Below, in pieces: positions 14,902 to 46,837 of a DNA stretch of 46,837 nt. The notes beneath the pieces are model-generated. The model was given only the letters and a program-made list of their open reading frames with translations. It searched no databases and was not told where the DNA came from. This DNA comes from Sulfitobacter sp. (GTDB lineage Bacteria; Pseudomonadota; Alphaproteobacteria; Rhodobacterales; Rhodobacteraceae), in contig JABDKA010000044.1 in the NCBI GenBank assembly GCA_013002405.1, positions 1 through 46,837 of the forward strand. The letters run 5' to 3'. Position 1 is the stretch's first letter, and each line of letters starts with the position of its first letter. Position numbers and translations under genes: made by a program.

Positions 14902-15080
14902 GGTGATTCTCCTGCTGCAAAGCCCCGGGGGCATTGCGTGAATTCTGAAACCCGGCTTTTAACCGGATAGGGGGGTGTGTCAACCACAAAAGGGGTCGGC
15001 AAGCACCATCCGTCAGCGCGCGGAATTCCGGAAATTCCGGGCCGTTTTCTTCCCTAAAACGGCGCCCGGTCCCAAAAAAC

Positions 15081-15461
15081 GCGCGGAAGGCCTATAAGCC
15101 GGATTCTGTCCTCCGGGGTCGCCCCCGAATGGATGACCATTCCTCTGACTGCCCCCTTGCGAGGGCAGCTATAGCTGCCAACCCGGACCTGCTGGGGCGA
15201 AAGCGGCCCCGCCTTGCGGCGCGCGGTCCCTATTTGGCATTGCTCCCGGTGGGGCTTGCCGTGCCGCCCCTGTTGCCAGGGGCGCGGTGGGCTCTTACCC
15301 CACCCTTTCACCCTTACCCCGGGCGCACCCGGGGCGGTTTGCTTTCTGTGGCGCTTTCCGTCGGGTTGCCCCGCCCGGGCGTTACCCGGCACCGTTTCTT
15401 CCTGGAGTCCGGACTTTCCTCGACAGTGGAGTCACCGCCGCGGCCATCCAGCCTTCCGCGC
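15081..15461 (-). ncRNA. rnpB: RNase P RNA (class A)
   Basis: Minus strand contains GAGGAAAGTCCGGACTCC near the 5' end and GGACAGAATCCGGCTTATAGGCC near the 3' end; P1 GCGCGGAAGGC pairs with GCCTTCCGCGC. Ends approximate. Confidence 0.92.
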
Positions 15462-43066: not shown

Positions 43067-44869
43067 CTAGGCGGCAGCAGCCCCATCGGTGAACTGCAGC
43101 CGGGCAAGACGGGCGTAGAGCCCACCGCGCGCGACCAACTCATCGTGAGTGCCCTGGGCCACGATCCGGCCCGATTCAAGCACCACGATGCGGTCTGCCT
43201 TCTTCACTGTGGCGAGCCGGTGCGCCACGATCAGGGTCGTGCGGTCCTTGCTCAATTGATCCACCGCATGCTGCACGGCCCGCTCGCTTTCCGCATCAAG
43301 CGCGCTTGTCGCCTCATCCAGCAGAAGCACGGGCGCGTCGCGCAAGATAGCGCGGGCAATGGCGATACGCTGCTTCTGTCCGCCCGAGAGCATCACGCCC
43401 CGCTCTCCCAGATAGCTATCGTAACCGTCGGGCAAGGCATCGATAAAGCCATGTGCCGCTGCGGCGCGGGCGGCGGCAAAGACCTCCTCATCACTGGCGT
43501 CGGGCCTGCCAAACCGGATGTTCTCAAAGGCAGAGGCGGCAAAGATCACCGGGTCTTGCGGAACCAGCGCGATGGTGCGCCGGAAGGCGTCGCGGGCCAA
43601 GTCGCGCAGATCTACACCGTCAAGGCAGATGCGCCCCTGATCGGGATCGTAAAACCGCAGTATCAGCTGTATGATCGTGGTCTTGCCCGCACCGGAAGGG
43701 CCAACGAAGGCCACCGTTTCCCCCGGCTGGATGTCCAGGTCCACCCCGTCGAGGGCGGCAATCCCCGGCCGCGCAGGATAGGAAAAAGCCACATTTTCGA
43801 AGGTGATCCGACCCTGAACCGGTTGCGGCACCGCCCGTGCCTCGGGCGGGTCCTGCACCGCATCCTCTGACTTCAGAAGCTCCACAAGCCGCTCGGTCGC
43901 GCCCGCCGCGCGCTGAAGCTCTCCCCAGATCTCGGACAGGGCCGCGACGGCGCCTGCCACCATCACCGCGTAGATGACGAACTGAACCAGCGCCCCGGTG
44001 GACATGTCCCCTGCGCGGACGTCCCGCGCCCCGATCCAGAGGACACCGACGATGCCCGTGAAGACCAGGAAGATGACGATGACGGTCATGGCTGCGCGGG
44101 TGCGTATCCGGCGGCGCGCGGCATCGAAAGAGGCTTCGGTCATCTGTGCGAACTGTCCCCGGCTCGCTGCCTCATGGGTAAAGGCCTGAACGGTCTGCAC
44201 GGCCGAAAGGCTTTCGGAGGCATTGCCGGAGGAGGCCGCGATCCAGTCCTGGTTCTCCCGGCTGATTGCCCGCAACCGACGACCCAGCGTCAGGATCGGC
44301 ACGATCACCGCAGGCACAATCAGCAGCACCAGCCCGGTGAGTTTGGCCGAGGTCAGAAGCATCAGCGCCAATCCCCCTATAAAGATCAGCAGGTTGCGCA
44401 GCGCGATAGAGACCGATGAACCGATCACCGAGAGGATCAGCGTGGTGTCGGTCGTGATCCTGCTTAACACCTCGCCGGTCATGATGCGTTCATAAAAGCT
44501 CGGGCTCATCCCGATGACGCGGTCGAATACGGCCTTGCGAATGTCCGCGACAACCCTTTCGCCCAGGCGGGTGACCAACGCGTAGCGCAGACCCGTCCCG
44601 ATGGCCAGGAGGGCCGCAATGCCGAGCGCGGCCAGAAAGTACTGGTCAAGCAGAGCCGCGTCTTCGGTCTCGAAATTGTCGATCACACGGCGCACGGCAA
44701 GCGGCAGGGTCAGGGACACGATGGCCGTCAGCACCAGCGCACAGATCGCCGCCGCCACCAGTCCCCGGTAGGGCCACATGAAAGGCGAAAGCGCGCGCAA
44801 AGCGCCGATCTGGCGCGATTTTTCGCGTTCCTCGGAAGCGGTTGGTGCAGGTGCGGGCGCAGGGGCCAT
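43067..44869 (-). CDS. ABC transporter, fused permease/ATPase (MsbA-like exporter)
   Basis: 6 TM + NBD: 'GPSGAGKTTIIQL', 'LSGGQKQRIAIARAIL', 'LLLDEATSALD'. Confidence 0.95.
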   Translation of the reverse strand: MAPAPAPAPTASEEREKSRQIGALRALSPFMWPYRGLVAAAICALVLTAIVSLTLPLAVRRVIDNFETEDAALLDQYFLAALGIAALLAIGTGLRYALVTRLGERVVADIRKAVFDRVIGMSPSFYERIMTGEVLSRITTDTTLILSVIGSSVSIALRNLLIFIGGLALMLLTSAKLTGLVLLIVPAVIVPILTLGRRLRAISRENQDWIAASSGNASESLSAVQTVQAFTHEAASRGQFAQMTEASFDAARRRIRTRAAMTVIVIFLVFTGIVGVLWIGARDVRAGDMSTGALVQFVIYAVMVAGAVAALSEIWGELQRAAGATERLVELLKSEDAVQDPPEARAVPQPVQGRITFENVAFSYPARPGIAALDGVDLDIQPGETVAFVGPSGAGKTTIIQLILRFYDPDQGRICLDGVDLRDLARDAFRRTIALVPQDPVIFAASAFENIRFGRPDASDEEVFAAARAAAAHGFIDALPDGYDSYLGERGVMLSGGQKQRIAIARAILRDAPVLLLDEATSALDAESERAVQHAVDQLSKDRTTLIVAHRLATVKKADRIVVLESGRIVAQGTHDELVARGGLYARLARLQFTDGAAAA

Positions 44870-45010: not shown

Positions 45011-45057
45011 TGGAGCGGGCGACGGGAATCGAACCCGTATCATCAGCTTGGAAGGCT
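45011..45057 (-). pseudogene. 3' fragment of a tRNA-Gly(UCC): anticodon arm to CCA only
   Basis: Minus strand AGCCUUCCAAGCUGAUGAUACGGGUUCGAUUCCCGUCGCCCGCUCCA; no acceptor/D-arm 5' half follows (AT-rich sequence instead). Confidence 0.85.
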
Positions 45058-45147
45058 ACCGCGCTTATCGATAATTATCTTTTTATAACAATACAGTAAA
45101 GATATATGATCTGGATCTTTGTAGGTTAACTGTCGGAAAAGATTTTC

Positions 45148-45221
45148 TGGAGCGGGCGAGGGGAATCGAACCCCTATCATCAGATTGGAAATCTGAGGTC
45201 TTACCATTACACAACGCCCGC
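45148..45221 (-). tRNA. tRNA-Gly (anticodon UCC), CCA encoded
   Basis: Minus strand GCGGGCGUUGUGUAAUGGUAAGACCUCAGAUUUCCAAUCUGAUGAUAGGGGUUCGAUUCCCCUCGCCCGCUCCA; acceptor, anticodon and T arms pair, D stem imperfect. Confidence 0.93.
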
Positions 45222-45293
45222 TCAGCGTGATACGACCTATTTCATGCGCATTCATTGGTCAAGTATCTGCTGGATATTGAGGAAGGAATTTCG

Positions 45294-45989
45294 ATGGCCA
45301 AACCACACGCTGTAATCATCGGGGTCGGCAATGGCCTTTCAGCAGCTTTAGCACGAAACCTTGCAGTAGACTACTCTTTGACACTGGCGGCACGCGGCAC
45401 GGACAAGTTGAAACTATTGGCTGACGAAACCGCCGCCCGCATGGTACAGCTGGATGCCACGGACGAAGACGCTGTAGCGGCGCTTTTTGACAGGCTTACC
45501 GCTGTGCCACGGATCGTGATCTACAATCCCTCAGCACGGGTGCGCGGACCGATTTCGGAACTGTCCGCAGATGATGTGCGCAACGCGGTCGAGGTGACAG
45601 CGATTGGGGCGTTCCTGACAGGTAAACATGCTGCCAAACACATGCTTCAGGCAGAACCGATCGACGGGACACGCGGTACCATTCTCTTCACAGGCGCATC
45701 TGCCGGGGTCAAAGGCTTCCCGCACTCCGCTCCGTTCGCCATGGGCAAGTTCGCACAACGCGGCCTGGCCGAGAGCATGGCGCGGGAACTGCATCCCCAA
45801 GGCGTTCACGTTGCCTGGATCAACATCGATGGCGGCATCCTCAATCCCGGCCGGGCGGAACCGGACGACAGGCCCGGATCAATGCTCCGGCCGGAGGCCA
45901 TTGCACGGACCTACCGGCACCTGATCGAGCAGGACCGAAGTGCCTGGACCAACGAAGTTGCCGTACGGCCCTGGGTCGAGCGGTTCTAG
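45294..45989 (+). CDS. SDR family NAD(P)-dependent oxidoreductase
   Basis: MAKPHAVIIGVGNGLSAALARNLA...; 'GTILFTGASAGVKG', 'SAPFAMGKFAQRGLAESMARELHPQGVHVAWINIDGG'. Confidence 0.85.
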   Translation: MAKPHAVIIGVGNGLSAALARNLAVDYSLTLAARGTDKLKLLADETAARMVQLDATDEDAVAALFDRLTAVPRIVIYNPSARVRGPISELSADDVRNAVEVTAIGAFLTGKHAAKHMLQAEPIDGTRGTILFTGASAGVKGFPHSAPFAMGKFAQRGLAESMARELHPQGVHVAWINIDGGILNPGRAEPDDRPGSMLRPEAIARTYRHLIEQDRSAWTNEVAVRPWVERF

Positions 45990-46016
45990 AGGGCTTTTGC
46001 AGAGCGGGCATTGCAT

Positions 46017-46709
46017 ATGCTGACTGACGATGAACTGGACGAACTCGACGCATTGCTGTTGTCCTTTCCGATGGAAGCAGACGGCATGCTTCTCAGCGAG
46101 TTTGATGGCTTTTGTGCGGGCCTGATCGTGTGCCCCGAGATGGTCATGCCGGGGGAATGGTTGCCCTGTGTGTGGGGGAACAGCCCTGAGCACCTTGAGA
46201 GCCTTGAGGACGTCGAGGCCGCGATGGGCTTCATCATGCGCCACTACAACGACGTGGCGCGTTCCCTGACCCCACCTGCAACGGGATACGCTCCCCTCTA
46301 TGACGAAGATACCAATACCGGTGAAATCCTCTGGGAAACCTGGTGTTGCGGCTTTGAACGCGCGATGCGGCTGCGTCCAGATACCTGGGAGCGCATTGTG
46401 GCAAGCGGCGACGAAGAAGCGGCAGCCTCAGTCAACATGATGCTGGCACTCTACAACATCGCCGAAGGTCAGAGCGATCTGCCCAAAGCCTCGGTCAGAA
46501 CCTTGACCGATGAGGCCCCGGACGTCATCCCGAACCTGGTTCTGGCGATCAACGATTGGACCAAGTCTGACCGGACATCTGCCCCCTTCCCGGCTTGGGC
46601 TGCGGCAAACAAGTACCAGGCCCCCTATCAGGGATCAAAAGTCGGGCGGAACGCCCCCTGCCCTTGCGGCTCTGGTCGCAAGTACAAGCGCTGCTGCGGG
46701 ACCAACTGA
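46017..46709 (+). CDS. UPF0149/YecA-like protein with C-terminal SEC-C metal-binding motif
   Basis: '[16 protein letters not shown]...[16 protein letters not shown]' and C-terminal '[19 protein letters not shown]'. Confidence 0.9.
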
Positions 46710-46806: not shown

Positions 46807-46837
46807 GCTGTTAATCAATTGGTCGTAGGTTCGATCC
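46807..46837 (+). pseudogene. 3'-half fragment of tRNA-Asn (anticodon GUU), cut by window end
   Basis: GCTGTTAATCAATTGGTCGTAGGTTCGATCC matches the tRNA-Asn anticodon arm to T-loop; the about 30 nt upstream lack an acceptor strand and D-arm. Confidence 0.7.

Follow-up and report, generated by a model that had tools for sequence, protein, structure and literature searches.

Integration into tRNA genes by genomic islands usually follows the rule that the gene is restored with a fragment borne by the element (PMC4383910). In the tRNA-dependent lysogeny of actinobacteriophages, demonstrated experimentally in 2024, the core is only about 10 bp, the gene is not rebuilt and the cognate tRNA is encoded by the phage itself; examples include Fionnbharth, LeBron and Gaia, and the authors leave open how prevalent this kind of integration is elsewhere (PMC10865867). 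It is the closest known system to the one described here.

We analysed a window of 46,837 nucleotides from Sulfitobacter sp. (GCA_013002405.1, contig JABDKA010000044.1), in which an intact tRNA-Gly(UCC) gene is followed by a second copy of a tRNA-Gly(UCC) 3′ half. Given the split halves, the replacement gene, the integrase and the fixed attP anatomy that we observed, it is very probable that a genomic island split tRNA-Gly(UCC) at the anticodon loop and carries a complete replacement gene at its attP.

The tRNA-Gly(UCC) locus

The window is the entire contig C88 of a draft Sulfitobacter-type genome of 252 contigs. Its features are listed in Table 1. The intact tRNA-Gly(UCC) gene, which had been proposed from the sequence, was recovered by both programs used. 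The proposed 3′-half copy, downstream of the gene, spans 45011–45057, and more than 100 Rhodobacteraceae records have a tRNA-Gly(UCC) whose 3′ half matches the 44 nt at 45011–45054 exactly. The AGC that follows also agrees with the tRNA. This identity indicates that the fragment is the normal half of the family, whereas the intact gene departs from the usual sequence; the native 3′ half is the displaced fragment, which matches the tRNA-Gly(UCC) of the lineage. The differences between the two 3′ halves in the T-stem and the anticodon stem were as originally described; the island allele of this strain has U32 and A31-U39.

Table 1. Positions of the island end and its neighbours in the window.
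Feature	Position	Strand	Basis or remark
ABC transporter of native left flank (outside island)	43067..44869	−	Adjoins uninterrupted tRNA-Gly(UCC) in Sulfitobacter relatives
Native tRNA-Gly(UCC) 3′ half, displaced; attL at left end of island	45011..45054	−	Exact 44-nt match to family consensus 3′ half; gives a perfect tRNA when joined to the C198 5′ half
Crossover (overlap), 7 bp, CTTCCAA, in anticodon loop	45048..45054	−	Also at attR end on contig C198
attP arm, 93 bp, within island between crossover and replacement tRNA	45055..45147	−	Constant length across spacers
IHF-like site, YAANNNNTTGATW	45086..45098	−	2 mismatches in window; fixed 44 bp from core
Putative integrase arm-type site 2, CCTACAAA	45118..45125	−	Fixed place, 11 bp from site 1, in nearly all spacers
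Putative integrase arm-type site 1, CCGACA	45131..45136	−	Fixed place, 11 bp from site 2, in nearly all spacers
Replacement tRNA-Gly(UCC), complete gene carried by island	45148..45221	−	ARAGORN and Rfam; both halves differ from native halves
Promoter-like region of replacement tRNA	45222..45265	−	Predicted from TTGACC and an AT-rich −10 region
Island cargo: short-chain dehydrogenase	45294..45989	+	Pfam adh_short; also adjoins island tRNA in G008
Island cargo: UPF0149/SEC-C protein	46011..46709	+	Pfam; adjoins dehydrogenase in G008, G025 and G029

The window holds the left island end alone, with the dehydrogenase and UPF0149 genes, and the island runs on beyond the end of the contig. The contig ends inside a 30-nt tRNA-Asn(GUU) 3′-half sequence (46808–46837) that starts at the anticodon loop and is identical to the tRNA-Asn gene on another contig, C249. 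This sequence is probably another att fragment and the cause of the assembly break. An ordinary RNase P RNA of bacterial class A was also found in the window (15079–15459, minus strand).

The far end of the island

The native tRNA-Gly 5′ half, with its promoter, was found on another contig of the same genome (C198, from 15655). It reaches CTTCCAA and then diverges into a region containing CCGACAAAAAGCCGACAAA, which is followed by a tyrosine integrase gene with the domains Arm-DNA-bind_3 and Phage_integrase. An AlpA-like gene and an AAA ATPase are also encoded at this end. The extended common core of attL and attR is AGCCTTCCAA (10 bp). The proposed tyrosine-recombinase attachment site was substantiated. 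C88 and C198 carry the two island ends of this draft genome, with the middle unassembled; by sequence logic and by analogy, they would join into one island. The genes on the native side of the C198 5′ half (FGE-sulfatase-like and nirK) are not conserved in the genus, and the empty site was therefore demonstrated with G028 instead of this genome: there, the displaced 5′ half still has the right flank that relatives show next to their uninterrupted tRNA gene.

Every full-length integrase homologue of about 70% identity or more for which sequence before the start was available had a tRNA-Gly 5′ half about 165 bp ahead of it, and that half stops at the anticodon loop; the exception, L303, is a 3′-truncated copy. 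These 5′ halves were of the UCC type, with CCC in L285. The gene order suggests that the orphaned native tRNA promoter may drive int. A distant integrase (L300, about 48% identity) adjoins a tRNA-Gly 3′ half rather than a 5′ half.

The position of the native 5′ half and promoter beside the integrase indicates that the island brought in the intact gene as a whole. The original prediction, that an element-borne allele had displaced native sequence, was right in that the fragment is native and the intact gene carries element sequence, but this gene was not assembled from a native 5′ half and an element 3′ half. Such a hybrid is what a classic island would leave if its attP held a 3′ half only and nearly all of the island had later been deleted. 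An intact tRNA with a 3′ fragment is indeed the usual signature of such islands (PMC4383910), but the native 5′ half at the integrase end already contradicts this reading, which we regard as very unlikely.

Split genes and complete carried tRNAs in other genomes

Both island ends were available in 15 genomes. When the displaced halves were rejoined, they gave a tRNA-Gly(UCC) with all five of the five anticodon-stem pairs, and the acceptor stem was fully paired in the 15 genomes, with one G-U pair in Shimia gijangensis. When native and island halves were mixed, stem pairs were broken or weakened in 10 of the 15. In the other direction, the island tRNA equals the native allele in five genomes, so that by sequence alone a hybrid there would look the same as a complete carried gene. 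The native stem of G014 and Ruegeria sediminis is TTAGC/GCTAA, and in Roseicyclus 2-496 the native acceptor sequence is GCGGGCG as against GCGGGTA in the island tRNA. In several genomes, the native halves form proper pairs with one another but mismatches with the intact gene, which also argues against a classic hybrid.

The 7-bp overlap was the same at both island ends in 14 of the 15 genomes; the exception, G002, has two tandem integrases. Mutated overlaps still match at both ends, as with CTTCCAC in G028 and TTTCCAA in isolate 988-3Z. In six cases a single contig holds both island ends, and these islands are 14.7–54.7 kb long. In relatives, the ABC transporter gene of the left flank lies beside the uninterrupted tRNA, which marks this flank as native. 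The decaying tandem full tRNAs that the original prediction named as a refutation were not found.

A tandem duplication with later decay of one copy would account for two similar sequences in the same orientation. However, a second full gene was found at no locus and the copy always begins at the anticodon loop, while the upstream breakpoint, the length and the arm motifs are constant across genera and an integrase family is associated with them. The probability of this explanation is close to negligible.

In G014, which has 37 tRNA genes, the island copy is the only recognised tRNA-Gly(UCC); seven long class II tRNAs are untyped. Since the split gene would otherwise be lost, we reasonably infer that the cell would depend on the island copy.

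The 93 bp spacer and its fixed length

The spacer was exactly 93 bp in 30 of 34 distinct sequences, whose mean pairwise identity was 51%. In about 25 of the loci compared, which belong to many genera, tRNA and fragment lay 137 bp apart; in three others the distance was 138–139 bp. A control with the reversed pattern gave no match in the census of 398 family genomes. The exact spacing in so many loci of many genera, together with the empty control, indicates that the arrangement is not due to chance. Constant spacing in unrelated genera is also unlike the outcome of the independent deletions that a classic hybrid island would need.

The two putative arm-type sites are direct repeats in the tRNA-proximal part of the spacer, and similar motifs also adjoin the start of the integrase. 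The IHF-like motif had on average 1.97 mismatches at the 44 bp offset (34 spacers), compared with about 4–6.7 at other offsets. With its tandem arm motifs and IHF-like site, the spacer has the anatomy expected of an attP arm. The original prediction took the gap of about 90 bp as a sign that the element had been almost entirely lost. This did not hold, as the gap is the attP arm and more of the island lies beyond the end of the contig.

The conserved motifs and the constant period of 137 bp could also belong to a non-autonomous mini-element of that length, or to a conserved tRNA-like RNA, rather than to the end of a large island. However, far ends of large islands with a 5′ half and an integrase were found, six of them on the same contig, and the spacer is poorly conserved outside the arm-like and IHF-like sites, which fits attP rather than an RNA. 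We consider the mini-element or RNA extremely unlikely, and we retain the island that carries a complete replacement gene.

In the proposed mechanism, the tyrosine integrase would insert the island in the anticodon loop of the chromosomal tRNA-Gly(UCC), and Int would recombine these sites. As attP and attB share only about 10 bp, neither junction rebuilds the gene. The native 3′ half remains at 45011–45054, and the native promoter and 5′ half lie next to the integrase at the opposite end of the island. A complete tRNA-Gly(UCC) is supplied by the island, exactly 93 bp from the crossover and just past the tandem integrase-arm sites. This replacement tRNA would be expressed and essential, and precise excision would restore the native gene.

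Distribution in Rhodobacteraceae

The unit of tRNA, spacer and 3′ half was found by pattern census in 7 of 62 genomes of the genus and in 16 of 398 genomes of the family (14 of 353 genera). In the family scan, the integrase was present at E < 1e-90 in 25 of the 398 genomes. Of 23 genomes tested, 13 had integrase homologues, and most of these 13 also have the tRNA and 3′-half unit. Roughly 4–6% of the Rhodobacteraceae genomes sampled carry the system.

One member, with an integrase 77% identical, adjoins a tRNA-Gly(CCC) 5′ half. That genome also contains a full tRNA-Gly(CCC) gene and, 93 bp after it, a tRNA-Gly(CCC) 3′ half. As the island that splits the CCC gene carries a full tRNA-Gly(CCC), the carried tRNA follows the target. 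Halves of tRNA-Gly(CCC) were likewise seen next to integrases of lower identity (about 50%), and no carried tRNA was found for them with the pattern used.

Island content and mobility

The gene content of six islands comprises the integrase, DUF3987 or VapE-type primases, restriction and BREX components, transporters, metabolic genes and insertion sequences. Among the best 25 families per set in Pfam or PHROGs, none was a phage structural or packaging family. An integrase search of viral contigs and a scan with the attP pattern found no excised or free form. Phage and plasmid records held only integrases below 60% identity, the best among the matches listed being about 24–28%.

In G014 and G002, fragments of tRNA-Asn 3′ halves recur near the ends of tRNA-Gly islands (L154:5661, L185:7255, L160:3584), a hint of a second island family that targets tRNA-Asn and is stacked in the same places. 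At L152 (G029) and L179 (G025), tRNA-Gly lies beside the dehydrogenase–UPF0149 pair without a 3′ fragment, and G029 has a decayed 5′ half 11 kb from tRNA-Gly. Both loci are perhaps islands locked through recombination between the two 3′ halves. At L185 of G014 (about 2.47 Mb), dehydrogenase and UPF0149 genes adjoin a promoter-bearing tRNA-Gly 5′ half at a great distance from the tRNA-Gly locus; this 5′ half is an island remnant.

Comparison with known systems

By all sequence criteria, the present family would work like tRNA-dependent lysogeny. In both, the element encodes a tyrosine integrase with an arm-binding domain, the core of about 10 bp lies in a tRNA gene, the tRNA is rebuilt at neither junction, and the cognate tRNA is carried (UCC in 15 genomes, CCC by the island that splits that gene). 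However, the elements here are alphaproteobacterial genomic islands and, with phage structural genes absent among the families listed, not recognisably temperate phages. They form a single family tied to tRNA-Gly, in which the switch from UCC to CCC is matched by the carried tRNA. The tRNA of Fionnbharth overlaps the protein gene 37, whereas here the tRNA is part of the attP module at a fixed 93 bp.

Classic tRNA islands of the Islander type with the anticodon-loop ("A") sublocation likewise have a tyrosine integrase, a crossover in the anticodon loop and a tRNA fragment that marks an end (PMC4383910). Their attP tRNA fragment rebuilds a hybrid, whereas the present islands displace the two native halves and carry a complete gene as a third copy. 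The 2-kb length filter used for Islander would reject the near 3′ fragment (PMC4383910). Elements that target the 5′ end of tRNA genes (Zhao and Williams 2002, cited in PMC6563490; pTN3-like archaeal integrases, PMC8371274) also have a 5′ tRNA fragment at the far end, but they too restore an uninterrupted tRNA through hybrid formation.

Significance

It is likely that this Rhodobacteraceae island family makes itself indispensable: it splits a single-copy tRNA-Gly and becomes its sole carrier, the rescue gene is fused inseparably to attP, the target and the carried isoacceptor switch together, and the host allele has been repeatedly replaced. Integration of the tRNA-dependent kind, so far found mainly in actinobacterial viruses, extends to another phylum and to islands that are not recognisable phages, and it accounts for the orphan tRNA halves that programs for finding islands would throw out. 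The built-in attP–tRNA module offers a compact candidate from which roseobacter integration tools could be made. An element that holds an essential tRNA gene should penalise imprecise loss of the island, and the finding suggests a route for the horizontal replacement of tRNA alleles.
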